Assembly: GCA_030600585.1 (NCBI GenBank)
Contig: JAUVLU010000005.1
Span: 1-64,000 of the forward strand
DNA: 64,000 nt
Origin: Candidatus Cloacimonadota bacterium
GTDB lineage: Bacteria > Cloacimonadota > Cloacimonadia > Cloacimonadales > TCS61
Direction: 5' to 3'
Positions 14,804 to 60,744 of this stretch are shown piece after piece (the stretch's first letter is position 1; each line of letters starts with the position of its first letter). The notes below the pieces were generated by a model. That model searched no databases and was not told the DNA's origin. It saw only the letters and a program-made list of their open reading frames with translations. Made by a program: the position numbers and the translations under genes.

Positions 14804-17170
14804 GTGTTAAATAAAAAATCTCTAACGGAAGCAGACATTCGTACAAAATTTATTACTCCTGCTATTGAACAAGTTGGGTGGGATAAAATCACACAATTCC
14901 GTGAAGAGGTTTATTTCACAGATGGAAGAATAATTGTTCGTGGCAAATTGGTTATGCGTGGTAAACGCAAAAGAGCAGACTACATCCTTTATTATAAACC
15001 AAATATTCCAATTGCAATTATTGAAGCGAAAGACAATAATCATAATATTGGTGATGGTTTACAGCAAGCTATCGAATATGGCGAAATCCTCGATATACCC
15101 TTTATTTATTCTTCCAATGGTGATGGATTTATCGAACATGATAAAACAAAATCTGAAGGTAAAATTGAAGTTGAGCTTTCGTTAGATAATTTTCCCACTC
15201 CACAAGATTTGTGGAATCGATATAAAGAATGGAAAGGGATATCCTCAGAATTTGAGAAACCAATTCTCCAACAATATTTTTATGAAAGAGATGGTAAAGT
15301 ACCAAGATATTATCAACGAGTTGCAATAAACAGAACTGTAGAAGCGATCATAAAAGGACAAAATCGAATTCTTTTAGTTATGGCAACAGGAACGGGTAAA
15401 ACATTTACAGTGTTTCAAATAATCTGGCGATTATGGAAAGCTGGAATAAAGAAAAGAATTCTCTTTTTAGCAGATCGAAATATTCTTATAGATCAAGCAA
15501 GAACAAATGATTTTAAACCATTCGGTGATAAAATCACAAAAGTTAAACATCGGCACATTGATAAATCTTACGAAATATATCTGGCATTATATCAAGGTTT
15601 ATCCGGTAATGAGGACTGGCAAAATATTTATAAACAATTCAGTTCAGATTTTTTTGATTTAGTCATAATTGATGAATGTCATAGGGGAAGCGCAAGAGTT
15701 GATTCTGCTTGGAGAGAAATATTGAAATATTTTTCTTCTGCAACTCAAATTGGAATGACAGCAACCCCCAGAGAAACAAAAGATATTTCCAATATCGAGT
15801 ATTTTGAAGAACCAATTTACATATATTCTCTTAAGCAGGGGATAGAAGATGGTTTTCTGGCTCCATATAAAGTTATTCGGGTTGGAATTGATAGAGATTT
15901 AGAAGGTTACAGACCACCTGAAGGAAAAATTGATAAATATGGATTTGAAGTTGCAGATAGGGAATATAATATATCAGATTATGATAGGAATTTAGTAATT
16001 GATAAAAGAACAGAACTGGTAGCAAAAAGGGTTTCAGATTATTTAAAAAACAATAATAGCCGTTTTGATAAAACAATTCTTTTCTGTGTTGATATTGAAC
16101 ATGCAACTCGAATGCGACAAGCATTGATAAACGAGAATTCAGATTTAGTGAAGAAACACAATAAATATGTAATGAAAATTACTGGAGATGACCAGATTGG
16201 AAAAATGGAACTTGATAATTTCATCGATCCTGCAAGTCGTTTCCCCACTCTAGTAACAACAAGTAAATTGTTAAATACCGGTGTAGATGCTCAAACCTGC
16301 AAATTAATTGTGCTTGATACAAATATAAACAGCATGACTGAATTTAAACAAATTATCGGTCGAGGAACTAGAATTAGAGAAGATTACGATAAACTATATT
16401 TCACAATTATTGATTTCAGAAAAGCTACAAGATTGTTTGCCGATAAAGATTTTGATGGCGATCCTGTAAAAATTAAAGAAATCCCTTCCGAAGTTGATAT
16501 TCCTGTAGAAGAAGACGAAATTAAGACGGAAGACGGTGTTTTAATTGAAGATGAAGAAATTATATTTGGTGATGTATTAAAAGATCTGGATGAAGAAGGC
16601 ATAACAAAACCTCGAAAATATTATCTCGATGATGTAGATGCAAAGATAATTCTGGAAAGAGAATTATATTACGATAAAGACGGAAAATTGATCACAGAAT
16701 CTTTAGTTGATTATTCAAAGAAAAACATAAAACAAAATTATGCGTCATTAAATGATTTCCTTATTAAGTGGAAACAAGCAGAAAAGAAGGAAGCAATTAT
16801 TGATGAATTAAGAGAACAGGGATTGCATATTGATGGTCTTCAAAATGAAGTAGGAAAAGAATTCGACCCGTTTGATTTAATCTGCCATGTTGCTTTTGAT
16901 ATGAAACCATTATCACGCAGAGAAAGAGCAAATAATGTGAAGAAAAGAAATTATTTTGCTAAATATGGAGAACAAGCAAGAGCAGTTCTGAATGCTATGC
17001 TTGATAAATATGCTGACGAAGGAATTAAAAATATAGAAAATATGAAAATTCTATATGTAAATCCTTTCAATGAAATTGGGAATCCATTGGAATTAATAAA
17101 TTCCTTCGGTGGAAAAGGACAATACCTAAAAGCTGTATCTGAACTTGAAAAACAAATTTATGCAATTTAA
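14804..17170 (+). CDS. hsdR: Type I restriction enzyme, endonuclease/translocase subunit HsdR
   Basis: DNA-translocating restriction subunit. 788 residues from a GTG start with AAGG just upstream. The N-terminal nuclease domain (about residues 10-125) has a PD-(D/E)xK pattern (RADYILYYK ... IAIIEAKD). The SF2 helicase core has MATGTGKTF (about residue 193), DECHRG (about 289), GMTATPRE (about 318) and the late motif QIIGRGTRIRED. The C-terminus matches the EcoEI-type R domain (PLSRRERANNV). First gene of an hsdR-hsdM-hsdS operon with 12 and 1 nt gaps. Complete and without frameshift. Confidence 0.95.
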   Translation: MLNKKSLTEADIRTKFITPAIEQVGWDKITQFREEVYFTDGRIIVRGKLVMRGKRKRADYILYYKPNIPIAIIEAKDNNHNIGDGLQQAIEYGEILDIPFIYSSNGDGFIEHDKTKSEGKIEVELSLDNFPTPQDLWNRYKEWKGISSEFEKPILQQYFYERDGKVPRYYQRVAINRTVEAIIKGQNRILLVMATGTGKTFTVFQIIWRLWKAGIKKRILFLADRNILIDQARTNDFKPFGDKITKVKHRHIDKSYEIYLALYQGLSGNEDWQNIYKQFSSDFFDLVIIDECHRGSARVDSAWREILKYFSSATQIGMTATPRETKDISNIEYFEEPIYIYSLKQGIEDGFLAPYKVIRVGIDRDLEGYRPPEGKIDKYGFEVADREYNISDYDRNLVIDKRTELVAKRVSDYLKNNNSRFDKTILFCVDIEHATRMRQALINENSDLVKKHNKYVMKITGDDQIGKMELDNFIDPASRFPTLVTTSKLLNTGVDAQTCKLIVLDTNINSMTEFKQIIGRGTRIREDYDKLYFTIIDFRKATRLFADKDFDGDPVKIKEIPSEVDIPVEEDEIKTEDGVLIEDEEIIFGDVLKDLDEEGITKPRKYYLDDVDAKIILERELYYDKDGKLITESLVDYSKKNIKQNYASLNDFLIKWKQAEKKEAIIDELREQGLHIDGLQNEVGKEFDPFDLICHVAFDMKPLSRRERANNVKKRNYFAKYGEQARAVLNAMLDKYADEGIKNIENMKILYVNPFNEIGNPLELINSFGGKGQYLKAVSELEKQIYAI

Positions 17171-17182
17171 TTAGGAGATAGA

Positions 17183-18604
17183 ATGCCAATTTCTAATGTT
17201 GTAAAATCAATTCAAAATATAATGCGAAAAGATGACGGAGTTGATGGAGATGCTCAAAGAATTTCCCAACTTTGCTGGATGTTGTTTTTGAGAATTTACG
17301 ATACACAAGAACAAGAATGGGAACAAATCGAAGAAAACTATATAAATATTATACCAAAGAAATTTCAATGGAGAGATTGGGCAGAAGATTCCGAAGGAAT
17401 AACCGGAGATGAACTTTTAAATTTTGTTAACAATCATCTTTTCCCGGAATTCAAAAACTGGCAATTAGATGAAACTTCCGATCCTAGAAAATTCACCGTA
17501 AAAAATGTTTTTGAAGATTCTTATAATTATATGAAATCCGGAACTTTGATAAGACAGGTTATCAACAAAATTAATGAAATAGATTTTGTTAACCAAAAAG
17601 AAAGACATCTTTTTAATGATATTTATGAGAAAATTTTGAAAAACTTGCAAAGCGCAGGAAACGCTGGAGAATTTTATACTCCCCGAGCAGTTACTCAATT
17701 CATTGTAGATATGATAAATCCACAACTGGGAGAAACCATTTTAGATCCGGCTTGTGGAACAGGGGGATTTTTAGTTTGCACTCTAGAAAACCTGAAAAAG
17801 CAGCTTTCCAATATTAACGATGTAAAACAACTCCAGAAATCCATAAAAGGAATAGAAATTAAATCTCTTCCTCACATGCTTGCAGTTACCAATATGATCT
17901 TGCATGGTTTTGATGTTCCCGATATTAAACACGATAATTCACTGGCAAAAAAAGTTACTGACTACAAGGCAAAAGAAAAAGTTAATATTGTAATAACCAA
18001 TCCTCCTTTTGGCGGTACCATAAAAGACGGAATAGAAATGAATTTTCCATCTACTCTTCGAACTAAAGAAACTGCTGATCTTTTCCTTATCTTGATCATG
18101 CATATTCTTAAACCTGGCGGCAGATGTGGAATGGTTCTTCCTGACGGATTTTTGTTTGGAGAGGGCGTAAAAACCAGGATTAAGGAAAAACTGCTTTCAG
18201 AGTTTAACCTGCATACAATAGTTCGTTTGCCGAATGGTGTCTTCGCACCTTATACAGGAATAAATACGAACCTCTTATTTTTTGAAAAAGGAATTCCAAC
18301 TCAAGAAATTTGGTTCTTTGAACATCCTTTACCGGATGGTTATAAAAATTATACAAAAACTAAACCAATTAGAATCAGTGAATTTAAACTTGAAAAAGAA
18401 TGGTGGAACAATAGAAAAGAAACCGAATGTTCCTGGAAAGTAACAATTGAAGAGATAAAAGAAAAAAACTATAATTTGGATTCAAAAAATCCTTCGATAA
18501 TTAAGGAAGAAAAAGAATATAATTCCAATGAACTTATTAACAAAATTAACGAAAAACTTGTTTTCGCAAAACAGCTTTTGGAACATATAAAGAGTAATAT
18601 CTAA
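17183..18604 (+). CDS. hsdM: Type I restriction-modification system, N6-adenine methyltransferase HsdM
   Basis: 473 residues. The N-terminal helical domain (about 10-130) recognises HsdS. The methyltransferase domain contains SAM motif I DPACGTGGF (188-196) and catalytic NPPF (273-276), followed by GGRCGMVLPDGFLFG, all typical of HsdM. GGAG precedes the ATG. The hsdS start follows the stop after a single base, so the two should be co-translated. Confidence 0.96.
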   Translation: MPISNVVKSIQNIMRKDDGVDGDAQRISQLCWMLFLRIYDTQEQEWEQIEENYINIIPKKFQWRDWAEDSEGITGDELLNFVNNHLFPEFKNWQLDETSDPRKFTVKNVFEDSYNYMKSGTLIRQVINKINEIDFVNQKERHLFNDIYEKILKNLQSAGNAGEFYTPRAVTQFIVDMINPQLGETILDPACGTGGFLVCTLENLKKQLSNINDVKQLQKSIKGIEIKSLPHMLAVTNMILHGFDVPDIKHDNSLAKKVTDYKAKEKVNIVITNPPFGGTIKDGIEMNFPSTLRTKETADLFLILIMHILKPGGRCGMVLPDGFLFGEGVKTRIKEKLLSEFNLHTIVRLPNGVFAPYTGINTNLLFFEKGIPTQEIWFFEHPLPDGYKNYTKTKPIRISEFKLEKEWWNNRKETECSWKVTIEEIKEKNYNLDSKNPSIIKEEKEYNSNELINKINEKLVFAKQLLEHIKSNI

Positions 18605-18605
18605 T

Positions 18606-19937
18606 ATGAATTGGAATAGGAAAAAAATATCTTTCTTTTTAAAAGAAAGACCTGACCGTTTTAAGCCTGAAGAAGCAAATGAGATGAATCTTAAAAGATT
18701 AGAAAAAATCGATTTTAGTGGAAATATGCATATCATTGAAAACAAACCAACAAAAACTGGCATGATTCTTATTAAAAAAGGAGATTTAGTAATATCTGGA
18801 ATTAATGTTGAGAAAGGGGCAGTTGCTGTTTATACTGGTGAAGATGATTTGTTAGCAACTATTCATTATTCTTCTTATGAGTTTGATGAAAACCAAATAA
18901 ATATTGGATATTTCAAATGGTTTTTAAAAAGCAAGAATTTTCATGATGTGTTATTAACGCAAACAAAAGGTGGTATTAAAACTGAATTAAAACCGAAGAA
19001 ATTTTTGCCGTTAGAGATATTGTTACCAAGAATTGATGAACAAAAAAAAATCCTTAATAAAATCAATGATGTGATAGATGAAATAAATGATGTAATTAAC
19101 TCATTTAATAATGTTGAAGATTTTGTTAATAAACTCTGCCAATCCATCCTGCAGGAAGCTGTGAAGGGAAAACTTACTGCAGACTGGCGAAAAGAAAATC
19201 CGGATGTAGAGATTGCATCTGAACTGCTCAAACGCATAAAAACAGAAAAAGAAAAACTGATTAAAGAGAAAAAAATAAAGAAACAAAAACCACTACCACT
19301 AATAACCAAAGATGAAATCCCTTTTGAATTACCAGAAGGTTGGATTTGGTGCAGGTTGGGGGAGATTCAATCCCATCTAGAATATGGTACTTCCGTAAAA
19401 TCTGAAACTGATGGTGAGATTCCAGTTTTTTCGATGGGACATATTTTAAATGGTAAACTTGTTTATAGAAACTTTAAATATACTACTATAGCCAATAAAG
19501 ATATTCCAAGACTATACTTGTATAATAACGATATATTATTTAACAGAACAAATAGTTGGGAGCTAGTTGGCAAGTCCGCTTTATTTAATGATGAAAATAA
19601 TAAATATTCATTTGCCTCGTATTTAATAAGAATTCGTTTTTTATTTGTTTCATCAATATTTATGAATTTTGTGCTAAATTCAATTTATTTTAGAAAGTCC
19701 CAAATTGAGCCACAAATCATAAAACAATGCGGGCAGGCGAATTTTAATGGAACAAAATTAAAGAATACTTTTATTCCTTTACCTCCACTCCAAGAACAAC
19801 TACAAATCGTAGAAAAAGTAGATAAATTAATGCATCTTTGTGATGAGTTAGAAGATAATGTCAAACAAGCAAAAGAATACAGTGGGCAATTGATGGAAGC
19901 AATGTTGAGGGAGGCGTTTGATGGGGAAAAGAAATAA
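18606..19937 (+). CDS. hsdS: Type I restriction-modification system, specificity subunit HsdS
   Basis: 443 residues with two target-recognition domains (about 1-150 and 240-385) separated and followed by helical spacers. The central conserved region reads SILQEAVKGKLTADWR and continues into PELPEGWIW-like FELPEGWIWCRLGEI, the standard start of the second recognition domain. The C-terminal spacer has LPPLQEQLQIVEKVDKLM and EAMLREAFDGE. An A9 run at 19042-19050 lies in the first spacer and would be a slip site. DNA target cannot be predicted from sequence alone. Confidence 0.94.
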   Translation: MNWNRKKISFFLKERPDRFKPEEANEMNLKRLEKIDFSGNMHIIENKPTKTGMILIKKGDLVISGINVEKGAVAVYTGEDDLLATIHYSSYEFDENQINIGYFKWFLKSKNFHDVLLTQTKGGIKTELKPKKFLPLEILLPRIDEQKKILNKINDVIDEINDVINSFNNVEDFVNKLCQSILQEAVKGKLTADWRKENPDVEIASELLKRIKTEKEKLIKEKKIKKQKPLPLITKDEIPFELPEGWIWCRLGEIQSHLEYGTSVKSETDGEIPVFSMGHILNGKLVYRNFKYTTIANKDIPRLYLYNNDILFNRTNSWELVGKSALFNDENNKYSFASYLIRIRFLFVSSIFMNFVLNSIYFRKSQIEPQIIKQCGQANFNGTKLKNTFIPLPPLQEQLQIVEKVDKLMHLCDELEDNVKQAKEYSGQLMEAMLREAFDGEKK

Positions 19938-19987
19938 ATGATTGACTTATTTTTCCAAAAATAAAATATTCATTTTGGAGAAAGGAA

Positions 19988-20488
19988 ATGAATACTACAA
20001 TAATTCCAATAACTAAAGAGAATATTGAATATTTGATTAGTTGTGAAAAACAGATTGAGTCAGTAGATAGAAAAGAATTTAAAATTGAGCAATGTCATAA
20101 GAAAAATGGTTTTAAACTTTTATCTACAGACAAGAAGCATAGTTTTTCTGTTTTTATGAGAATTAATGAAGAATTTAGGGAAAATTTTAGTATAGGACTA
20201 GTGTATAAACCAGTTCTTGATAAAAGCATTATGCTTTTTCGTTGTAATGGTCCTCATAATCATAAGGAAAGACCAAATTCGGAACATCATAAATCATATC
20301 ATTATCATTATGAAGTAGAAGAAAATATTGCAAATGGACTAAATCCGATGGATCATTCTGAAATCGTAGAAGAATATGCTACATTTCGAGAAGCTTTTCA
20401 ATTTTTCATTCAACGATGCAATATTGCTAACGCTGATGATTTCTTTTCTGAATATACAGAACAAGTTTTTAATTTTATGGATGAGTAA
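19988..20488 (+). CDS. DUF6978-like protein of the R-M island
   Basis: 166 residues, soluble, no signal peptide. The middle has SFSVFMRINEEFRENFSIGLVY followed by LFRCNGPHNHK and a His-rich run EHHKSYHYHYEVEENIANG, which I recognise as the pattern of the DUF6978 family. Function is not known. It starts 50 nt after hsdS with GGAGAAAGGAA upstream of the ATG, and its stop is 2 nt before the next gene. Together the two genes look like a two-component cassette, possibly a toxin-antitoxin or defence module riding with the type I R-M genes. The family name is from memory of the motif. Confidence 0.6.
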   Translation: MNTTIIPITKENIEYLISCEKQIESVDRKEFKIEQCHKKNGFKLLSTDKKHSFSVFMRINEEFRENFSIGLVYKPVLDKSIMLFRCNGPHNHKERPNSEHHKSYHYHYEVEENIANGLNPMDHSEIVEEYATFREAFQFFIQRCNIANADDFFSEYTEQVFNFMDE

Positions 20489-20490
20489 TA

Positions 20491-21249
20491 ATGAATTATT
20501 TAGATATTGTAAGATCAGAATTCAATAATAAAGTTAGTTTTACTGAAAAAAGACCTGGTATTTTTCAGTTAAATTCACCCCTATTTCACGAAGATGGAGA
20601 TATGGTTGATATCTTCTTAACTGAAATCGAAAAAGATAAAATCAGAATTTCAGATTATGGCATGACTATTATGAGGTTGTCTTATACTTACGATTTGAAT
20701 ACTGAAAATAAAATGAAAATATTTAACCAAATAATTGGTGAAAATAAAATTCTCAATGATAATGGAAATCTGTATATTGATACAAATATTCGTGATCTTT
20801 TTTCTTCAATAATGCATTTTTCTCAAGTTGTAGCGAAAGTTAGTAATATGAGTTATTTTAAAAGAGAAATGATAAGGTCTCTTTTTTATGAAATGCTTGA
20901 TGAACATATTCATGAAAGATTTGATTCTATATATAAAGTCGAAAGAAAAATATTTCCTTTGCCAGCAAGAGATGATTTAGAAGTAGATTTTTCATTCGAT
21001 GTTGGAAAGCGTCCAATTTATCTTTTCGGTGTTAAAGATGTTACAAAGGCAAGACTTGTGACAATATCTAATTTAGAATTTTTAAGGAATGATCTCATTT
21101 TCAAAAGTTTTATAGTTTATGAAGATATTAACAATATCAATTCAAAAGATAGAAATAGACTATTAAGTGCTTCTGATAAACAATTCCCTAGTTTTGAAGA
21201 TTTCAAAGAAAATGGAGAGAACTTTTTACAAAGAGAGACAACCGGTTAA
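20491..21249 (+). CDS. DUF1828 domain-containing protein of the R-M island
   Basis: 252 residues, soluble. The first 100 residues have the DUF1828 pattern (HEDGDMVDIFLTEIEKDKIRISDYGMTIMRLS), a family found in prophages and mobile islands. The remainder has VAKVSNMSYFKREMIRSLFYEML, then ARDDLEVDFSFDVGKRPIYLFGVKD and a C-terminal DKQFPSFEDFKENG. The second half is rich in beta-strand pattern with conserved D and K residues (EVDFSF ... YLFGVKD) reminiscent of a nuclease-like fold, but this is only an impression. Starts 2 nt after the previous stop, so co-translation is likely. Confidence 0.65.
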   Translation: MNYLDIVRSEFNNKVSFTEKRPGIFQLNSPLFHEDGDMVDIFLTEIEKDKIRISDYGMTIMRLSYTYDLNTENKMKIFNQIIGENKILNDNGNLYIDTNIRDLFSSIMHFSQVVAKVSNMSYFKREMIRSLFYEMLDEHIHERFDSIYKVERKIFPLPARDDLEVDFSFDVGKRPIYLFGVKDVTKARLVTISNLEFLRNDLIFKSFIVYEDINNINSKDRNRLLSASDKQFPSFEDFKENGENFLQRETTG

Positions 21250-21416
21250 TTACAATATTTTTCAATTTCTTAACACCATCCTTTCTCCTACAACTTTTAC
21301 CGGCAGGGTCAACGAAAATTTTGGTAAGTTTTTAATAATAAATTTGAAATGTTGTTATTCCGTAGGGAACAAAATCCGAAAACAATAATCAGTTTAAAAT
21401 ATAATATGAGAATTAA

Positions 21417-21935
21417 ATGAATCGCAAAGCAAATAGATACAAAGATTATAATTATTCATCGTCAGGATATTATTTCGTTACGATTTGCACAAAAGATCGG
21501 TTATCGTTTTTTGGTAAAATAGAAAACGGTAAAATGATTTTGAATGAATGTGGTGAGATAGCAGAAAAATGTTGGTTAGAAATCCCCAAACATTTCCCAA
21601 ATGTAAAAACAGATGAATTTGTGATTATGCCCAATCATTTTCACGGCATAATTATTATTGATGGTTTTGTAGGGAACAGGCATGCCTGTTCCCTACAAAA
21701 TGGTAACGTAAACCGACAACATCAGAAATTACCTGTTATCATCGGTTCGTTCAAATCTGCCGTAACCAAATTAATACATCGAAAATGTGATAATAGTTTT
21801 CAATGGCAAAAATCCTATTATGATCACATAATTCGTGATGAATCGTCGTTGGATAATATTCGACAATATATCAGACAAAATCCCATAAATTGGGATACAG
21901 ATAAGAATAATTTGTTGTTTTGCAGCTACCGCTGA
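21417..21935 (+). CDS. REP-associated tyrosine transposase (RAYT, Y1/IS200-like)
   Basis: 172 residues of the Y1_Tnp HUH family, which nick and rejoin DNA at palindromic REP-type sequences. Visible are the N-terminal YNYSSSGYYFVTICTKDR, the HUH motif in IMPNHFHGIII, and the catalytic Tyr region WQKSYYDHIIRDE followed by IRQYIRQNPINWDTD. No clear ribosome site. The coding sequence contains a perfect 36-bp palindrome (21665-21700) translated as part of a loop just after the HUH motif, without breaking the frame. A 32-bp stretch of its 5' end recurs at 23112-23143. Confidence 0.92.
   Translation: MNRKANRYKDYNYSSSGYYFVTICTKDRLSFFGKIENGKMILNECGEIAEKCWLEIPKHFPNVKTDEFVIMPNHFHGIIIIDGFVGNRHACSLQNGNVNRQHQKLPVIIGSFKSAVTKLIHRKCDNSFQWQKSYYDHIIRDESSLDNIRQYIRQNPINWDTDKNNLLFCSYR
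21665..21700. repeat. Perfect 36-bp palindrome inside the RAYT gene
   Basis: TTTTGTAGGGAACAGGCA is followed directly by its exact reverse complement, with no spacer. It encodes about residues 83-95 (FVGNRHACSLQNG) in frame. It has the size and form of the REP/BIME-like palindromes that such transposases act on. The phrase GTAGGGAACA also occurs 5' of the gene at about 21361-21370. Confidence 0.85.
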
Positions 21936-39752: not shown

Positions 39753-39943
39753 AATATTTCCTCAATTATTTAATAAATTTTCAAGTAATACATCATCACT
39801 GATAATATTACTTTCCTGAAATTTATTGTAGTTGAATTGAAGTCAAATAAAAAAGTTATTATCTTTTCTATTTGAAAGGTACGTCGAGTAGGAAAGAGGC
39901 TTAAAAAAAGGTTTCGAGTCGTTGTTTCTTATGACAACATGCC

Positions 39944-40169
39944 CGTCACTCTGAGGAATCTCCTTGCCCTTGTGGAATTGTGCATCGCACACCTGTTTCA
40001 CAGGATTCCACGGGGCTTGCTGTTACTCTTAACGAAGAGTTAGGGTAATATATAATTGATTTATATCGTCTATTCTTCCTATGGAGAGCAGCGCCTGCCC
40101 CGCTGAATAGCCTGGGGTGCAAGATTCGACCCATCTACGCACTGCTACGACGTGGCAGGGAGAATGACG
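39944..40169. repeat. MITE-like element with a compact three-way-junction fold
   Basis: About 226 bp bounded by inverted ends CGTCACTCT (39944) and AGAATGACG (to 40169). Inside, 39972-40011 folds completely: GTGGAAT, hairpin TGTGC-ATC-GCACA, hairpin CCTGT-TTC-ACAGG, then ATTCCAC, with GCCC/GGGC extending the base stem. A further hairpin ACTCTT-AACG-AAGAGT lies at 40025-40040. Base composition is richer in G+C than the surroundings. No convincing gene; one short minus-strand frame runs through it but looks like a by-product. Confidence 0.55.
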
Positions 40170-40182
40170 CATAACTGCAACA

Positions 40183-41874
40183 TCATTTCAAAAGCAAACA
40201 TTTTCTTATTGCTTTTTCTTTTCCATTCACTTTTAGCTTATAGAAATAAACACCGGAACCGACTTTTTTCCCGAACGAATCTTTGCCATTCCAGATAATA
40301 TTGTGCGTTCCTTTTTCAAATTCATCATTAATAAGAATTTTAACTTTTTGTCCTTTGATGTTGTAAATTGAAAGATCAATTTTGCTTGCTTCAGGAATAG
40401 AAAAAGATATCGTAGTTTCTGGGTTGAAGGGATTTGGGAAATTGCTAAAATTGAGTTTGTTGGAGATTATATCTTCATTTAGCTGGTTTCGATATCTGCC
40501 TTTAGATACAAATATATAATCAATCTTATCGCTTAGGATCGTTGGAGAATCAAAAGTGACTTCAAAACCTCCATTTTCTCCAAATTCAAAATAATCCTCA
40601 TCTTCAAATAAAATCAGGGAACGAACATCTGAACCATTCTTTAAAGAATTTGCAGAAATAATTGAACAACTTTGAATATCTAAATTGTTGCTATTTCGAC
40701 CTTGGTCCATCACAAAAGCAATTCCATGAACTTCAATATCTTCGGATGATTTGATGATAATATTACCAAAACCTTGAGTTATTAAATATTCAGGTATTTG
40801 AGAATACGATATATTTAGATTTTCATAAATACCCACAACATCAAAAACATAAGTTGAATCACGATAATTATTATCTCCTATTGCAATATTACCTTTGTCA
40901 CCCAAAGCTCTGCTATTATATTTCATACAAGTTAACTTTAAAAAAACTTCATCATTCTGAGGAAGAGTATATTCATCAAGAGAAATAATTATTGAATCAT
41001 TTGCAGGTATAACAAATATGCTATCCCTTCCTGTTTCTATATGTATTTCTCTTCGTAAATCATACGAAAAAATTTTACCCTGTCCTGTTACACCGATAGT
41101 TTCATTCTCAGGATGACAAACAGCAATTAATCCTGTATAATCAAAGTAATTTATATTATCCTGATTTTCTAAAACCTTGAATGAGAGATCATTATGATTT
41201 ATTTTATTTTTTAAAAGCTTATATTCCCGAGTATCTTCGCTTTGATTTTCAGCAAGTGAAACCAGGTTGTTTTCCAGCTCTCCTTTGCTGTATAAAGTGG
41301 GGCAACCTCCTCCACCATTATATTCTGAAACACAAAAAAAAGGATCACAATTAGGACCATACCAATAACTTTTTTTTATCAATCCATCAAAACTAACAGG
41401 ATTATTTACATAAAACAAATGACCGATATTTATCCACAAAGTAAGATTTCCAGATAATCCCCACCCTATACACTGATCAACTGTAGGCATCATAACACTA
41501 ATAGTACCATTGGTGTTAAATGAAACGTAGTTATTTAGATTATAACTATTATCATTTTCATCTTTCAAAGAAACATTGAAATTATTATTACCGTTATTAA
41601 TTGATATACTTCCATTATAAGGTAACCGAAGTTTAAGAACATGGTTCTTACCATAATAAACACCACCAGAATATACTCCATAGTAAGTAGCGTAAAACAT
41701 ATCTCTATTAATATCTTCAGGAAGGAAAATTGGAAATGGTGGATAATCACCGTAATCAAAAGGTTCTGTAATTACCTTGTCACTCGTATCATAATCATCG
41801 ATTGTGATTACAATATCATCTAATGTAACATCGGATAGTATTATTCTTTTTACAAAACTTTTTGCCAGGATATA
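40183..41874 (-). pseudogene. C-terminal part of a type IX-secreted beta-helix protein, cut off by an in-frame TAA
   Basis: The frame is the direct continuation of 41875-43548: both are in the same phase and only the TAA at 41875-41877 separates them. The 58 codons after the stop (YILAKSFVKRIILSDVTLDDIV ... PIFLPEDINRD) are stop-free and protein-like. Then comes a region of beta-sandwich character (MFYATYYGVYSGGVYYGK) and a type A sorting domain (FPNPFNPETTISFSIPEAS, KGQKVKIL, GSGVYFYKLK, final CLLLK). There is no signal peptide or ribosome site on this part, so it can only be made by read-through or from a repaired allele. Confidence 0.85.
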
Positions 41875-43548
41875 TTAACTATAGTCTGCAATACATAAAT
41901 CTACTACTTTATTATTCCAATCTCCAATAATATTGTTATTCTGTTCTATAGTTACTTGTATCTGTGTACTTTGATTATGATATGTCAAATAAACTATTGT
42001 AAGTTCTTTCTGGGTATTTCCTGTTAGGGGGTCATTGTTGGTGTAGAAATATGCATCATATTGATCTCTGGAAGGTTCATTTATATTGAGATGATTCCAC
42101 TGTGCTAATACGGTTTTAATCCCACCAGAATCCCATCGGTCTTTTGCTGGATTATTACAGTTTGTCGTTCCCGGTTCACCATTTGTAGGATGATATGGCC
42201 ATTGGTATTCCGGAATAAAATCCGGTCTTGTGTCTTTATAATATGAAATGTCTTCCCAATACATATCACTATGAACTCCATTACCCCAATAACCTTCATT
42301 TGGGTGTAACCAATCAAAGCAATGAATATTTGCTTTGTAATGTCCTTCACCGTGCATAGACCAAGGCCATGTAATTGAAAAATCAGTATAATAAAAACGA
42401 CAATTTACTATTATTTGATCATCGTTATCATTGTTTGGATATAATGGATTTAAATCCCAGTCAGCTATTTTAGGTGCTCTATTCCTGAATATTAGATTGT
42501 TAATCCCATTTTCTCCATGAGCTTTATCAAACTGTATAAATTCAGCAATATTTCCTTCGACGAGATTAAACTCTGGTGGATCGGCATTAGTGCCAGAAGC
42601 ACCATGAAAACAAATATCAGTAGGTTCATAATTTGTTGACCCTTGGGAATCATTTTCTCGTGAATAATTGTAACCCAAGACATTATGATAAGCGTGATTA
42701 CCAAATATCATTGAGTGTCTTAATTTTCTGAAAACATTGTTTTCAATTAAACAATGATGTGAATCATTACCTATTACAACGCCATATCCATTACCTCCAC
42801 TAGTTCTATGAATAGATTCATTTATGTAACATTCCCTGACTTCTATATGATTATTGCCTGAACCTATTGAGATATGGTGTCTTTCTGAATAATTACTTTG
42901 AATACCATTGATCCAACAATGATCTGAATAAGAAAATACGAAATATCTTCCTCCAATATACTCATCACCTGTGAATGGTCTAGTTTCAATCCATTGAGAT
43001 GAATGTGTTATTTTGAAATCTTCAAATCCTATATTTGATGATGAATATATTTTGAAGCTATCATCATATTCCCAACCTGCTGCTGTTGGGATACCCTCAA
43101 CTTCATATTTAATATAATCATATCTAAAAAGCAAAGTCGTCTCTTCCGCACCTGCCCCTTTGAATACTACATTATTACGGTTGATTTCTATGGTCTCATC
43201 AAATTCATAAACACCTGGTGGAAAGTAGAAGAGGATATTTGATTGATTGAAATCTGAATTATCTGGATCTATAATATAGAGAATTTTCTGCGTTAATGTG
43301 TTTCCCTGTATTATTGGGTCTTCCAAATCTTGAGTAACATCAATAAATTTATCAATTTCCAATCCACCATCTGCTTGTAGTTGCTTTAGACAACCTGCAT
43401 TTTGCCATGGTAAAACCATTTCAGTTGGATTCCACCATGCTTCCTCTAAATCTGGTAACCTATCACTTGGAATATGTGTTCCAATTTGAGCAAATAAACT
43501 TGCCGTGTAAATTATAACTACCAATAAAACTAAAATATTCGTTTTCAT
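41875..43548 (-). CDS. Secreted right-handed beta-helix protein, N-terminal part of a 1121-codon gene
   Basis: 557 residues to the TAA. Signal peptide (MKTNILVLLVVIIYTASLFAQ), a conserved leader module (IGTHIPSDRLP, NAGCLKQLQADGGLEIDKF, FYFPPGVYEFDETIEINRNNVVFKGAG), then a pectate-lyase-like parallel beta-helix (about 105-400) with runs such as NHIEVRECYINES, NYSERHHISIGS, HCLIENNVFRKLRHS. Third and only full-length copy of a gene present three times in tandem. Preceded by AAGGAG and 10 nt after the lipoprotein-like gene. The downstream sorting domain is separated from it by one nonsense codon, so as written the product would be released but not sorted. Confidence 0.85.
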   Translation of the reverse strand: MKTNILVLLVVIIYTASLFAQIGTHIPSDRLPDLEEAWWNPTEMVLPWQNAGCLKQLQADGGLEIDKFIDVTQDLEDPIIQGNTLTQKILYIIDPDNSDFNQSNILFYFPPGVYEFDETIEINRNNVVFKGAGAEETTLLFRYDYIKYEVEGIPTAAGWEYDDSFKIYSSSNIGFEDFKITHSSQWIETRPFTGDEYIGGRYFVFSYSDHCWINGIQSNYSERHHISIGSGNNHIEVRECYINESIHRTSGGNGYGVVIGNDSHHCLIENNVFRKLRHSMIFGNHAYHNVLGYNYSRENDSQGSTNYEPTDICFHGASGTNADPPEFNLVEGNIAEFIQFDKAHGENGINNLIFRNRAPKIADWDLNPLYPNNDNDDQIIVNCRFYYTDFSITWPWSMHGEGHYKANIHCFDWLHPNEGYWGNGVHSDMYWEDISYYKDTRPDFIPEYQWPYHPTNGEPGTTNCNNPAKDRWDSGGIKTVLAQWNHLNINEPSRDQYDAYFYTNNDPLTGNTQKELTIVYLTYHNQSTQIQVTIEQNNNIIGDWNNKVVDLCIADYS

Positions 43549-43558
43549 TTTTTTCTCC

Positions 43559-44587
43559 TTAATTTGTTATTAGATTTTTACTTATAGGATTTGTTAAATA
43601 AGTTCCAACATAGATAATTCTATCATAATCTGTCGAGAATCTTGCTGTTCGTCCCATCTCCATAATATTTTCAATTTCTTCTGTAATAAAATTGTAAGAA
43701 AAGATTTCACTATTTTCAGTTATATGTGATGTGCTAAAAATTATCCCAAAATTTGAAATGTGAGGTTGCTTTCCTTCATGAATTTCATAAATAATTGTTT
43801 CATTTTTTAGGTATTGAATTATTGGGTAATTAATATAAACTAGTTTCTCTTTATCATTTGAAATCCAGTAAGAATATGTTGATACTTCATAAATTAGACT
43901 CGTGCTATTGCCAGTATCCTTATCATATTTGAACAATTCTGGGCCATGCTCTAAAGTTTCTATGTAATATATTGTATTGAGATTCTTATAAGAAGGTAAG
44001 CCTATGAAAAAATCTGGAGTTGCTATAGTTAAAATAGTATCAACATTTACGGTTGTTAAATCAAGCTCAAGAATTGAATAAGAATTTATATCATTTTCAC
44101 TAAATACAATTAATTCATTATTTGGTGATAAAGCTGGATTTTGACAATTTCGTAGAGAATTCTGATAGATAATTTCTAATTGATCTTCAATAATTTCATA
44201 TCGGTATAAATCCTTTGCAGGATATCTGTCAGATTCAGCACAAAAATAGAAATAACTACCATCTGATGTTACACAAGCATATTCATAATTTGCAACTTTC
44301 AATTCCCCGCTTATCTTCATATTGTCTGTCCCATCTTCATTTACCGTATAAAGGCTACTATCAGCAAGATAAAGCAATTTGTTTGAATTTGGAATAAACT
44401 GCACATTGTCACAATTATCTACATCAATCACTTTCTGCTTGTTATTCCCATCTGCATCCATAATGTAGATGGCATCCTGGTAGATGGGTTCATAATCATT
44501 ATTGTCACCACCATAATTACAACCGCAAAACAATAGTGGTAACAGCAATGATATAAAAAATATCGGTAAAAATAGTTTTGTTTTCAT
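43559..44587 (-). CDS. Surface beta-propeller protein (TolB/PD40-like), unit 3
   Basis: 342 residues. Signal sequence ending LLFCGCNYGG, with a possible lipid-anchor Cys after FCG. The conserved front part (DAIYIMDADGNNKQKVIDVDNCDNVQFIPNSNKLLYLADSSLYTVNEDG) is nearly identical in the three paralogues and has TolB/WD40-like blades. The middle differs (VANYEYACVTSDGSYFYFC ...) and the tail (LTNPISKNLITN) is shared again. It starts inside the stop of the truncated beta-helix gene (ATGA overlap, 44584-44587), with GGAGG upstream. Confidence 0.75.
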   Translation of the reverse strand: MKTKLFLPIFFISLLLPLLFCGCNYGGDNNDYEPIYQDAIYIMDADGNNKQKVIDVDNCDNVQFIPNSNKLLYLADSSLYTVNEDGTDNMKISGELKVANYEYACVTSDGSYFYFCAESDRYPAKDLYRYEIIEDQLEIIYQNSLRNCQNPALSPNNELIVFSENDINSYSILELDLTTVNVDTILTIATPDFFIGLPSYKNLNTIYYIETLEHGPELFKYDKDTGNSTSLIYEVSTYSYWISNDKEKLVYINYPIIQYLKNETIIYEIHEGKQPHISNFGIIFSTSHITENSEIFSYNFITEEIENIMEMGRTARFSTDYDRIIYVGTYLTNPISKNLITN

Positions 44588-44991
44588 CTTAATACCTCCA
44601 TATTTTTTATTCGGTTTTTTTTAATTGTTTCACCCATTCCCGCACCTTTAAATACCACATTATCGCGGTTGATTACTATGGTCTCATCAAATTCATAAAC
44701 ACCTGGTGGGAAGTAGAAGAGGAGGGAATGGTTGGTATTTGCTGGAGTATATAATGTATCGCTAATAGCTGCACTTAGATTATTTTGATCAAATTCTTCA
44801 ATATTGTAAAATTTAGTAATATCCAATCCACCATCTTCTTGGAGTTGCTTTAGACAACCCGCTTTGGTCCATTCAAGAACACCAAAGTTGTCGTATGGTA
44901 AACTTTCTTGAGGAATATGGGTCCCAATTTGGGCAAATAAACTTGCTGTTAATAATATAACTACCAATAAAACTAAAACATTCACTTTCAT
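44584..44991 (-). pseudogene. Truncated beta-helix gene, unit 2
   Basis: 135 codons: signal peptide (MKVNVLVLLVVILLTASLFAQIG), the conserved leader module (AGCLKQLQEDGGLDITKF, SLLFYFPPGVYEFDETIVINRDNVVFKGAG), then an abrupt change after GETI into KKNRIKNMEVLR, which is simply the translated leader of the next gene (it contains the GGAGG used by the gene at 44587). The whole beta-helix and sorting domain are missing. The frame itself is intact, so it could still make a small secreted peptide, or act as a recombination donor. Confidence 0.75.
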
Positions 44992-45001
44992 TTTTTTCTC
45001 C

Positions 45002-46075
45002 TTAATTTGTAATTAGATTTTTTTGTACAGGATTGGTTATGTACTGACCAATGTAAACAATTTGAGAAGTATCTTTATTAAATCTGGGCATCATTGAATC
45101 TTCAGTTAACAAATTTTTATTAAAACCATCAAATTGAATAGAATATATTGAGCATAATCCGGTTCTCAAATCAGTATATAAAATTGTATCCTCCGATAAT
45201 GTGAAATTATATCCTTCTTCAAAATTAGTACTAATTTGAAAAGTGTAATCAAATAGAGTCATATAATCATTTTGGTGATAATAAAGTAATTTTGTGACTA
45301 TTTGTGATAACTCATGTGAGTAATATGGGATTGCACCCTTAGCAATAAATTCATATTCAATGAATCCATCTTCAACTGAAGAATATTGATAAATGGAACC
45401 ATCCACATTCCCCCAAAAAACAAATAATTTATCAGTATTTTCGTCATATTTAGGATCAGCAAATCCATTTGCATAATCTAAATTAGATAATTCTTTTATG
45501 TAACATGTATCAATAATACTATTGGCTAAATTCATCTTACTAACTGTACTATAGCTACCATCTCTGTTATTAAAATATGTGACATATAGCAAAAATTCTT
45601 GATTTTGATATTGAATAAAAGTAGCTTCTTTTTCACTTACATCAACTGTATTCGTTAAATTCGTTAGTTCATTACCTGTCGGTTCTGTCATATAGAGGTC
45701 ATAAATGTAATCACGAGAATCGTAATAAACAGCAAACGCAATCTTTTCTCCATCATTAGAAATTGCAGGTAAATCCCATCTTACATTCAAATCTTCACTT
45801 ATCTTAACATTCTCAGTCCCATCCTCATTCACTGTATAAAGGCTGTTATCAGCAAGGTAGAGCAGTTTGTTGGAATTTGGAATAAACTGCACATTGTCGC
45901 AACCGTCCACATCAATCACTTTCTGCTTGTTATTCCCATCTGCATCCATAATGTAGATGGCATCCTGGTAGATGGGTTCATAATCATTATCGCCACCACC
46001 ATAATTATACCCGCAAAACAATAGTGGTAACATCCATGTAATAAACATTATCGGTAATAATAGTTTTGTTTTCAT
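45002..46075 (-). CDS. Surface beta-propeller protein (TolB/PD40-like), unit 2
   Basis: 357 residues, paralogue of the genes at 43559 and 46520. The first about 95 residues match unit 3 almost exactly (DAIYIMDADGNNKQKVIDVDGCDNVQFIPNSNKLLYLADNSLYTVNEDG), the middle is different (WDLPAISNDGEKIAFAVYYDSRDYIYDLYM, as in TolB blades), and the tail YITNPVQKNLITN is shared. The Cys of unit 3 that could be lipidated is Tyr here (FCGYNYGG), so this copy may be secreted rather than lipid-anchored. Start overlaps the stop of the truncated beta-helix gene by ATGA. Confidence 0.75.
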   Translation of the reverse strand: MKTKLLLPIMFITWMLPLLFCGYNYGGGDNDYEPIYQDAIYIMDADGNNKQKVIDVDGCDNVQFIPNSNKLLYLADNSLYTVNEDGTENVKISEDLNVRWDLPAISNDGEKIAFAVYYDSRDYIYDLYMTEPTGNELTNLTNTVDVSEKEATFIQYQNQEFLLYVTYFNNRDGSYSTVSKMNLANSIIDTCYIKELSNLDYANGFADPKYDENTDKLFVFWGNVDGSIYQYSSVEDGFIEYEFIAKGAIPYYSHELSQIVTKLLYYHQNDYMTLFDYTFQISTNFEEGYNFTLSEDTILYTDLRTGLCSIYSIQFDGFNKNLLTEDSMMPRFNKDTSQIVYIGQYITNPVQKNLITN

Positions 46076-46509
46076 CTTAATACCTCCATATTTTTTATTC
46101 GGTTTTTAGTTGTCTCTTCCGCTCCCGCACCTTTGAAAACTACATTATCACGATTTATCTCAATTGTTTCAGTAAAATTATACTCTCCTGGTGGGAAGTA
46201 GAAGAGGAGGGACTGTCCATTATAAACATCATCATTTTCAACAAGATCTATAATTTTCTCAGTCAATGTACTGCCTTCAATAACTGGATCATCCAAATCA
46301 GTTGTTACATCAATAAATTTATCAATTTCCATGCCACCATTTTCTTCTATCTGTTTTAAACATCCTGCATTCTGCCATTCGGTTATTCGTGGATTTGAAC
46401 TAACCAAAGGTAATCTTTCATCAGGGATATTAGTTCCAATTGTACTTTGTGCAAATAAGTTTACTGAAAAAATTATAACTGCAATTAAAATTAAAATATG
46501 TTTCTTCAT
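46072..46509 (-). pseudogene. Truncated beta-helix gene, unit 1
   Basis: 145 codons: signal peptide (MKKHILILIAVIIFSVNLFAQS), the leader module (IGTNIPDERLP, NAGCLKQIEENGGMEIDKFIDVT, LLFYFPPGEYNFTETIEINRDNVVFKGAGAEETT), then the same foreign tail KNRIKNMEVLR as in unit 2. Truncation is at nearly the same codon as in unit 2, showing that both arose by the same rearrangement or that one was copied from the other. 10 nt after the unit 1 propeller gene. Confidence 0.75.
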
Positions 46510-46519
46510 TTTTCTCTCC

Positions 46520-47515
46520 TTAATTTGTTATTAGATTTTTACTTTTGGGATTTGTAATATATTTACAGATGTATGTGATTTTTTGAGCATTATCCGAAAA
46601 CTTACCTTTGAAAGCATGTTCAGCAAGAAAGGCATCTTCAAAAGTTATAAGATTAAACACTCTTACTTCGCTATTATAATCTCCCCAGTTTGTTGAGTAA
46701 ATCATTTTATCATTTGAAAAATCAGGATATTCACCATTAACGATATTTTCAACATTTCCATTATTAATCTTTATCCTATATATAAAAGAATCTGTTTTGA
46801 AAATATACTGACTATTATACCAATCTAATTTACCACCCCAGGTTAAACTAGTGATTATCTGCTCAATATCAGTTATGATATTGAATTTATAAATACCGTT
46901 TTCAATTATATCTCCTGTTTTCGAATAATATATTTCTGTATTGTCAATTCCAAATATTGGGGAAATTAAACTAATATCTTGTTGCGTATATACAATTGTT
47001 TCAACTTCTTGTTCTATTAATGAATATTTGCAGATCGAAATTAACGAGTTTTCAGAAATTTTTAAGAAGATAATATTGTTATTTTTATAATCAATGTAGG
47101 ATTCGTGATAGTCCTCTGATTGTGTTATATTTTCATAAACATTATCGATTAAATCAATTTGATAAACATCTGCATTGGCCATTCTTTCTTGGTATGCTTC
47201 AAAAAAGCAAAATTGACCATTATCAGATATTATTGGTCTTGCATAATAAAGATCCAATTCTCCACTTATCTTAACATTCTCTGTTCCATCCTCATTCACT
47301 GTATAAAGACTGTTATCAGCAAAATAAAGCAGTTTGTTTGAATTTGGGATAAACTGTACGTTATCACAATTATCCACATCAATCACTTTTTGTTTGTTAC
47401 TACCATCCGCATTCATAATGTATATAGCACCCTGATATTCGGGATTATGTTCATAATCGTTATCATTACAAGCTATCAAAATCAATAGCATTAATATTAT
47501 GATTATATTTTTCAT
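46520..47515 (-). CDS. Surface beta-propeller lipoprotein (TolB/PD40-like), unit 1
   Basis: 331 residues; first gene of the cluster. Clear lipoprotein signal (MKNIIIILMLLILIACND, lipobox LIAC, Cys16). Conserved front (GAIYIMNADGSNKQKVIDVDNCDNVQFIPNSNKLLYFADNSLYTVNEDG), unit-specific middle (YYARPIISDNGQFCFFEAY, VYQIDLIDNVYENITQ), shared tail (YITNPKSKNLITN). The 360-bp region upstream holds the probable promoter for the six-gene cluster. Confidence 0.78.
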   Translation of the reverse strand: MKNIIIILMLLILIACNDNDYEHNPEYQGAIYIMNADGSNKQKVIDVDNCDNVQFIPNSNKLLYFADNSLYTVNEDGTENVKISGELDLYYARPIISDNGQFCFFEAYQERMANADVYQIDLIDNVYENITQSEDYHESYIDYKNNNIIFLKISENSLISICKYSLIEQEVETIVYTQQDISLISPIFGIDNTEIYYSKTGDIIENGIYKFNIITDIEQIITSLTWGGKLDWYNSQYIFKTDSFIYRIKINNGNVENIVNGEYPDFSNDKMIYSTNWGDYNSEVRVFNLITFEDAFLAEHAFKGKFSDNAQKITYICKYITNPKSKNLITN

Positions 47516-47874
47516 TTTTACCTCTTAATTTTTAGATTTCATTACATTATTAAATAAAAGCTCTCTTATTCCACTTTTTCTAAATTCACTTTCTTTTTCA
47601 TCCTCTCTAATCTCTCAGAGAGTATTTATCCGAATAAACTTATTTTTACCAATGTAGAATATGTTATTCGATTTATATACTCTACTTCCTAAAATTGCTA
47701 AGTTGTTTTTTTCTGTAAAGATTAAAATTGTATTTTTATAGTTGGATTGAAACATAATAACTGTGGAGTTAATAAACTGGAAAGAATATATCTCTTAAAA
47801 TCATTCTCAATAAAATGCTTGCCATATAAAAGAAGATAATTAAAAAACTCACATGTTTTTATTGGTAAAAAAGT
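47516..47874. promoter_or_regulatory. Divergent intergenic region between the propeller/beta-helix cluster and uvrB
   Basis: No gene. It must carry promoters for both directions because both neighbours start here. A small hairpin CTCTCTAATCTCTCAGAGAG lies at about 47602-47621. No SOS (LexA) box could be recognised in front of uvrB. Confidence 0.4.
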
Positions 47875-59560: not shown

Positions 59561-60145
59561 TTATTGTAATAATCCTTCATCAAAATCTGAGCCAAGATAA
59601 CTTTGCCAATCTACCCATGAACCTTCTTTTTCATCACCATCACTGTAAATAAGCCGGTAATCTCCGTGTTGATGCAGATCAATAAAAATATATGTTTTAA
59701 AACTTGAAATTCGATATTTCCATATTTGATAATCTTTCTGTGCATACTTAGTATTTACTCCGGTATTCAATTTTAATATTTCAAATGGTTTACCATGCTT
59801 GATGTAAATTCTGCCTATATCTGTTTTCCAGCCTTTACTAAAATGCGAATAATGCTTATTGCAATATTCAATTCGGGTTATGATTTCCAGTAGGAATTCA
59901 TTGCCTTCTGTTGCCGGATTTAGGTCTTGTGCTTTCCAGAAAGCTGAAATATATTCCCATTTGTTTTTTTTATCGAGTTTCTTATAATATCTTCTCTGAT
60001 TTGGTGAAAGAAAATAACTTACAAGTTTATATTCATCTTTCAAATTACTAAAAACATGATCTTCTCTTTTGGGAATTGAATCTATATCGACTGAAATTCC
60101 AATAAATATTCCAGTCATAATTATAATAAATAGAATTCTTTTCAT
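59561..60145 (-). CDS. GWxTD domain-containing protein, copy 2
   Basis: 194 residues. Signal peptide (MKRILFIIIMTGIFIGISV), then the GWxTD domain: YEYVSYFL-like EYKLVSYFLSPNQRRYYKKL, WKAQDLNPATEGNEFLLEIITRIEYCNKHYS, and the signature KGWKTDIGRIYIKHGKPFEI, then YQIWKYRISSFKTYIFID. The GWxTD family is found mainly in FCB and related phyla; function unknown, thought to be envelope-associated. 11 nt after its paralogue. The two share nearly identical signal peptides and similar bodies, so a recent tandem duplication. Confidence 0.85.
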   Translation of the reverse strand: MKRILFIIIMTGIFIGISVDIDSIPKREDHVFSNLKDEYKLVSYFLSPNQRRYYKKLDKKNKWEYISAFWKAQDLNPATEGNEFLLEIITRIEYCNKHYSHFSKGWKTDIGRIYIKHGKPFEILKLNTGVNTKYAQKDYQIWKYRISSFKTYIFIDLHQHGDYRLIYSDGDEKEGSWVDWQSYLGSDFDEGLLQ

Positions 60146-60156
60146 CTTAATATCCT

Positions 60157-60744
60157 TTATTGTAATAATGTTGCATCAAAATCTGTACCAAGATAATCAC
60201 GTAAATTTGCCCATGAACCTTCTTGTTCATCACCATCACTAAAAACAAGTCTAAAATCTCTATGTTGCTGAGGATCGATAAATAAAAATGTTTGAAAACT
60301 TGATATTCTGTATTTCCAAATTTGGTATTCTCTCAATGCAAGTTTAACATATGATCCAGTATTTGTTAGTTCCAAAATTTCAAATGGTTCACCATGCTTT
60401 ATATAAATTTTGCCCATATCTGTTTTCCAACCTTTCTTAAAATGCGAAAAATGTTTGTTGGAATATTTAATTCTATGTATGATTTCCAATAGGAACTCAT
60501 TATCCTCTGTCTCCGGATTTGGATCTTGTACTTTCCAGAAAGTTGAAAGATATTCCCATTTGTTTTCTATATCAAGTTTCTCGTAATACCTTTTCTGATT
60601 TGTATTAAGAAAATAACTCACAAGTTTGTATTCATCTTTTAAATCACTAAAGACATGACCTTCTTTTTGGGGAATTACTAATGGATCAGCTGAAATTCCA
60701 ATAAATATTCCAGTCATAATTATAATAAATAGAATTCTTTTCAT
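60157..60744 (-). CDS. GWxTD domain-containing protein, copy 1
   Basis: 195 residues with the same plan as the next gene: signal peptide MKRILFIIIMTGIFIGISA, then LKDEYKLVSYFLNTNQKRYYEKL, WKVQDPNPETEDNEFLLEIIHRI, KGWKTDMGKIYIKHGEPFEI (GWxTD signature), YQIWKYRISSFQTFLFID and the C-terminal LGTDFDATLLQ. Its start overlaps the end of the EamA transporter gene by 4 bp (ATGA), so the three genes are probably one operon. Confidence 0.85.
   Translation of the reverse strand: MKRILFIIIMTGIFIGISADPLVIPQKEGHVFSDLKDEYKLVSYFLNTNQKRYYEKLDIENKWEYLSTFWKVQDPNPETEDNEFLLEIIHRIKYSNKHFSHFKKGWKTDMGKIYIKHGEPFEILELTNTGSYVKLALREYQIWKYRISSFQTFLFIDPQQHRDFRLVFSDGDEQEGSWANLRDYLGTDFDATLLQ

Follow-up and report, generated by a model that had tools for sequence, protein, structure and literature searches.

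An operon-like array of predicted propeller lipoprotein genes with exchangeable cores ahead of a beta-helix gene in Cloacimonadota

Introduction

CDI/Rhs toxins, hsdS genes and surface antigens are known to exchange specificity segments as modules, with most examples coming from pathogens that have been studied in depth. In CDI/Rhs loci, tandem orphan modules lie beside one full-length gene and are related to the modules of other strains, and the homology between strains is bounded by a conserved motif (PMC3150448). In duplicated hsdS and pilE/pilS loci, conserved segments flank swappable specificity segments, and the copies are located side by side (PMC7394358). Nothing relevant to recombination or surface variation in Cloacimonadota was found in the literature searched.

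The locus reported here is located in a 64,000-nt stretch of a Cloacimonadota metagenome assembly (contig JAUVLU010000005.1; hereafter the window). It is a case of modular exchange in manner, and not a member of the CDI/Rhs, hsdS or pilS families. As in CDI/Rhs loci, the shared core of the first propeller gene, P1, and an orphan unit of another genus (G017a) has sharp borders, at the KISGEL codons and the stop. Unlike in CDI/Rhs loci, the orphans lie upstream, keep the start of the beta-helix gene, and carry complete propellers with their own start and signal peptide, and the variable parts do not co-vary with the neighboring gene; no toxin family was identified by Pfam in the seven ORFs scanned, and no small variable gene follows the modules. 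Conserved flanks, swappable segments and several adjacent copies are shared with the hsdS and pilE/pilS loci. By contrast with those, convincing inverted repeats or a recombinase are absent from the locus, the copies are complete, and the exchange is seen between genera and not within a genome.

Results and discussion

Organization of the gene array

Six genes, all on the minus strand, form three propeller/beta-helix units in the transcription order P1, bh1, P2, bh2, P3 and bh3. The predicted propeller lipoprotein gene P1 (46520..47515, 331 aa) consists of an arm (~47515-47258) and an exchanged core (~47255-46512), and is followed by bh1 (46072..46509, 145 aa), a cut beta-helix gene comprising a signal peptide, an FKGAG module and a short tail. 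The second unit contains the propeller gene P2 (45002..46075, 357 aa; arm ~46075-45790, core ~45784-45002) and the cut gene bh2 (44584..44991, 135 aa), and the third contains the propeller gene P3 (43559..44587, 342 aa; arm ~44587-44300, core ~44299-43559) and the long gene bh3 (41875..43548, 557 aa to its stop). The coordinates, orientations and spacings of the six genes given in the preliminary description were reproduced, including the 10 nt from propeller stop to beta-helix start in three of three units and the 4-nt ATGA overlap at both bh1/P2 and bh2/P3. Also borne out was the claim that bh1 and bh2 are cut at the same codon, both ending in KNRIKNMEVLR right after the FKGAG(A/M)xET module, with a tail that is the translated leader of the next propeller gene. 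The P2 leader (46076..46107, minus strand), fused to bh1, contains a GGAGG ribosome site, and the same leader precedes P3 (~44588-44619; 88% identity). All three propeller genes are complete, each with its own start, signal peptide, ribosome site and stop.

Direct repeats in the locus belong to a 300-nt and a 190-nt family, with three copies each, far above chance. The copies differ from one another by 11-35%, and the array is therefore not a simple assembly duplicate. A search of the rest of the genome for further beta-helix cassettes, suggested in the preliminary description, returned no additional beta-helix gene or unit in the 2.58-Mb, 89-contig assembly. A promoter and terminator scan yielded a promoter count no higher than in shuffled sequences and gave no usable signal; operon status, like the lipobox, was read from the sequence.

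The beta-helix genes

The third beta-helix gene, previously described as the only long one, is indeed the sole long copy, but it is not full-length, being terminated by an in-frame TAA (41875-41877). Beyond this stop, the bh3 frame stays open to 40183 (40183..41874, minus strand), with an ORF from the ATG at 41700 and a Por_Secre_tail-type sorting tail at its end. In the Pfam analysis of the seven ORFs, the 40183-41700 frame ended in a PF18962 match (29.4 bits, cut-off 27), and the beta-helix part scored under the cut-off for PF12708; the TAA thus separates the beta-helix part from the sorting domain, which is in another frame. In G017, the homologous gene forms one uninterrupted 1125-aa frame, with CAA (Gln) at the position of the TAA. 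As read, this genome is without an intact beta-helix copy, unless the stop at 41875 is a sequencing error.

The cut genes bh1 and bh2 retain only ~135 codons. We considered them as donors of variation to the long gene and rejected this role, since the cuts precede any variable part, and copies holding the N-terminal module alone cannot donate variation to the remaining beta-helix protein. The cut starts have dN/dS values of ~0.3-0.5, similar to those of the full genes, and the cut starts of the window and G017 cluster together in the tree, with less than full support (91/92). The long gene is also mosaic: it is ~93% identical to its G017 counterpart in the last third, and the G017 gene is nearer to G032 in part of its first third.

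Prevalence of the layout in Cloacimonadota

Four further Cloacimonadota genera show this layout: G017, G032, G116 (another family) and, in decayed form, G090 (a third family). Where it recurs, one or more orphan units come first, and only the last beta-helix gene is full. The cut beta-helix remnants measure 116 aa in G017, 80 aa in G032 and about 70 aa in G116. In G090, three propeller genes are separated by two intergenic spacers with a decayed beta-helix start, detected with a z of 7.8 in one spacer and ~95% identical in the shorter second one; the first and third propellers are 77-100% identical in the arm and ~40% in the core. G023 contains a single unit, and G114 reaches a contig edge after a 153-aa fragment. 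Propellers are in some cases present without a beta-helix gene. Outside Cloacimonadota, only weak TolB-like matches were obtained as relatives, and a search for viral carriers found no relative in IMG/VR.

Tandem duplication, the alternative offered in the preliminary description, accounts for this layout. In genes of ~1100 or more codons, every cut falls within the initial ~40-140; if cuts were uniformly distributed, four to five independent ones would fall there with a probability of ~1e-4, a rough value that assumes independence. This position suggests that the short beta-helix start is a favored unit end, and perhaps a recombination handle.

Misjoining of units or strains during metagenome assembly would be an alternative source of such arrays, in view of the metagenomic origin of all the sequences and the contig ends common at these loci (G030, G114 and G116). 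We consider it extremely improbable, given that the layout is present in five genomes with diverged sequence, that units within one genome differ by 11-55%, and that the frames are open across the joins.

Variation and exchange of the propeller core

As judged from the alignments, the variable element of the locus is the propeller, specifically its core. Within the propeller gene, the 5' arm (~260 nt) and the region from the stop to the beta-helix signal peptide are conserved, and the core (~740 nt) is unrelated between the window units. Protein alignment of propellers from the window and three other genera revealed conservation of the first ~95 residues and of the end, with core identities of 14-24% between most units. 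Sliding nucleotide identity of P2 and P3 was 85-98% from the leader through most of the first 250 nt, fell to ~45% in the following ~700 nt, and was 85-87% again around the beta-helix signal peptide. An alignment of the units for gene-conversion tracts, as had been proposed, found no recent tract between P2 and P3, whose arms have a dS of 0.54 and whose cores are unrelated. A close relative of the P3 core was not found. By eye, the lipobox region reads LIAC in P1 and FCGC in P3; in P2 (45002-46075) the second cysteine of this region is lost (CGC to CGY), and P2 may be lipidated at another cysteine or not lipidated.

An opposite pattern was observed for P1. Its core is 95% identical at the nucleotide level to that of G017a (sliding identity 90-98%), between an arm of 81% and a following beta-helix start of ~70% identity (Fisher's test, p 1e-7 for arm versus core and 6e-25 for core versus beta-helix start). 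The dS of this core is 0.12, against 2.1 for uvrB between the window genome and G017. The breakpoints coincide with the KISGEL codons on one side and the stop/ribosome site on the other. In the core tree, P1 and G017a were joined with support of 100/100 and a clade of the three window units was rejected (p-AU 8e-52), and in the arm tree this clade was not rejected; both trees were built from few taxa, with low resolution in the arm tree. A second core type, to which that of P2 is related, is common to the first unit of G032 (G032a) and the single unit of G023, and is also present in G107, from a different family. A core has been exchanged between genera by recombination within conserved flanking segments, and of such exchanges only one recent and one older are clear. 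All genomes compared are metagenome assemblies, in which a join at the conserved arms could in principle be chimeric; for P1 and G017a, a chimera is argued against by a core identity of 95% and not ~100%. A comparison of strains for unit number and swapped segments had been recommended; across genomes, unit number differs, as do the cores. The arrangement is not identical and fixed, exchange is visible, and its strongest instance is between genera and not between window units.

The core common to P1 and G017a, both orphan units, has a pN/pS of 0.34 (p 8e-4). This orphan core is under purifying selection and hence not a silent donor, and at least the orphan propeller of the P1/G017a type appears to be used. 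These data bear on two alternatives. Plain tandem duplication followed by decay, in which exchange plays no part, the propellers having diverged vertically and the surplus beta-helix starts being debris, seems unlikely to us. The layout would follow directly from one duplication and one more unit copy, and beta-helix copies are frequently broken (the bh3 stop, a deletion in G030 and the G090 remnants); however, a core of 95% identity across genera, flanked by an arm of 81% and a beta-helix start of 70%, cannot result from vertical divergence, nor can the opposite pattern in P2/P3. The orphan core is under purifying selection.

Antigenic variation from silent cassettes within one genome, with incomplete units feeding an expressed copy by gene conversion in a pilE/pilS-like manner, has less probability still. 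Same-orientation direct repeats with conserved anchors, mosaic sequences and the location of the units all together would be consistent with it. Yet all propellers have a start, signal peptide and stop, the cut beta-helix copies are without the varying part, the P2/P3 arm dS and missing recent conversion tract do not fit, no long perfect inverted repeats occur near the locus (the pairs found were weak, 14-32 nt long and 72-93% complementary), and the orphan core is under purifying selection. The earlier view of a recombination-varied locus is thus supported by the exchange, but not in its form of one expressed full-length beta-helix copy with incomplete donors: that copy is itself interrupted by a stop, and the orphan propeller core is not silent.

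Predicted fold, export and role

Structure models of P3 and P2, which have unrelated cores, both gave 2ojh as the first PDB match (E 4e-10 and 8e-9, respectively); 2ojh is a putative TolB. Model confidence was moderate (pLDDT 71 for P3 and 68 for P2, best of five, with a large spread), and both are, with moderate confidence, TolB-like propellers by fold. Unlike TolB-like/PD40 propellers, the window proteins reach only 14-15 bits against Pfam PD40, under the 20.9 cut-off, and have lipoprotein-like signal peptides and a conserved arm with an exchangeable core.

The genome encodes SprA, and the type IX sorting tail (PF18962) matches it 117 times within 2.58 Mb, both indicating type IX secretion; for a genome of this size, so many matches represent a very large repertoire of secreted proteins. 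Like type-IX-secreted beta-helix proteins, the beta-helix protein of the locus has a sorting tail above the Pfam cut-off and is probably exported by this route; it departs from them in its beta-helix part, under the PF12708 cut-off, and in the stop that splits the window copy.

We infer that the propellers are specificity-type lipoproteins under diversifying pressure. Cognate propeller/beta-helix pairing was considered and set back, as the core type and the neighboring beta-helix variant do not co-vary between genomes; the window and G017 have the C-terminal part of the beta-helix protein in common and unrelated last propellers. The same observation weighs against a reading of the beta-helix protein as an antagonistic effector, with propellers kept as protective partners like CDI/Rhs orphans. 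Those systems likewise have orphans related to the loci of other strains and borders set by motifs (PMC3150448), and here too the propeller is retained where the partner gene is lost. No toxin domain was found by Pfam, though, propeller core and adjacent beta-helix variant do not travel together, and propellers also exist without a beta-helix gene, and we regard this reading as very improbable.

It is reasonably probable, from the comparisons above, that the locus encodes, in operon-like order, several propeller lipoproteins of the outer surface or periplasm, whose cores are interchangeable and exchanged between genomes, and finally a secreted beta-helix protein. Tandem duplication would have extended from the propeller leader to the first 40-140 beta-helix codons, leaving the last copy alone full, and cores would be swapped by recombination inside the conserved arm and the conserved 3' junction. 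The propellers may serve in recognition, giving specificity for a glycan, a partner protein, a phage or a predator, either jointly with the beta-helix protein or next to it. Selection for diversity would retain several propellers, one beta-helix copy would suffice, and in the window genome this single copy would since have gained a stop codon. Only tentatively do we suggest an undescribed Cloacimonadota diversification system, with arrays of orphan propeller modules, the arm and beta-helix start as recombination handles, cores crossing genera, and a repertoire maintained ahead of a single secreted beta-helix protein. If true, this would provide a natural set of interchangeable propeller cores in an uncultured phylum, across genera and in recurring arrays, and would hint at strong diversifying pressure on Cloacimonadota (phage, predator, substrate or neighbor recognition).

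Genomic site

The locus lies within a variable block (39865..47811, no strand assigned). In the same-genus genomes G007 and G009, only ~29 nt are present at this place, and ~200 nt separate uvrB from the gene for an 803-aa membrane protein. Other genomes of the genus carry different secreted proteins at the uvrB-side spot. The site is filled differently or empty across the genus, and is therefore a variable-cargo site. In G008 (contig C70, L137), the cargo at this spot differs from that of the window, comprising genes for another beta-helix-like protein (1343 aa) and for a sorted protein of 765 aa; the upstream leader is common to both over 131 nt (47602-47732 in the window).

Assignments for genes beyond the locus were made by eye on the translated sequences. 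Just downstream of the array, a G+C-rich non-coding stretch (39895-40180) represents a REP-like dispersed repeat, of which the genome contains 14 partial copies at 73-100% identity. The region 14804-21935 contains type I restriction-modification genes and, downstream of them, a REP-associated-transposase-like ORF (21417-21935), with a possible link to this repeat. Farther along the window, two adjacent near-duplicate genes of ~195 aa (59561-60145 and 60157-60744) appear GWxTD-like.
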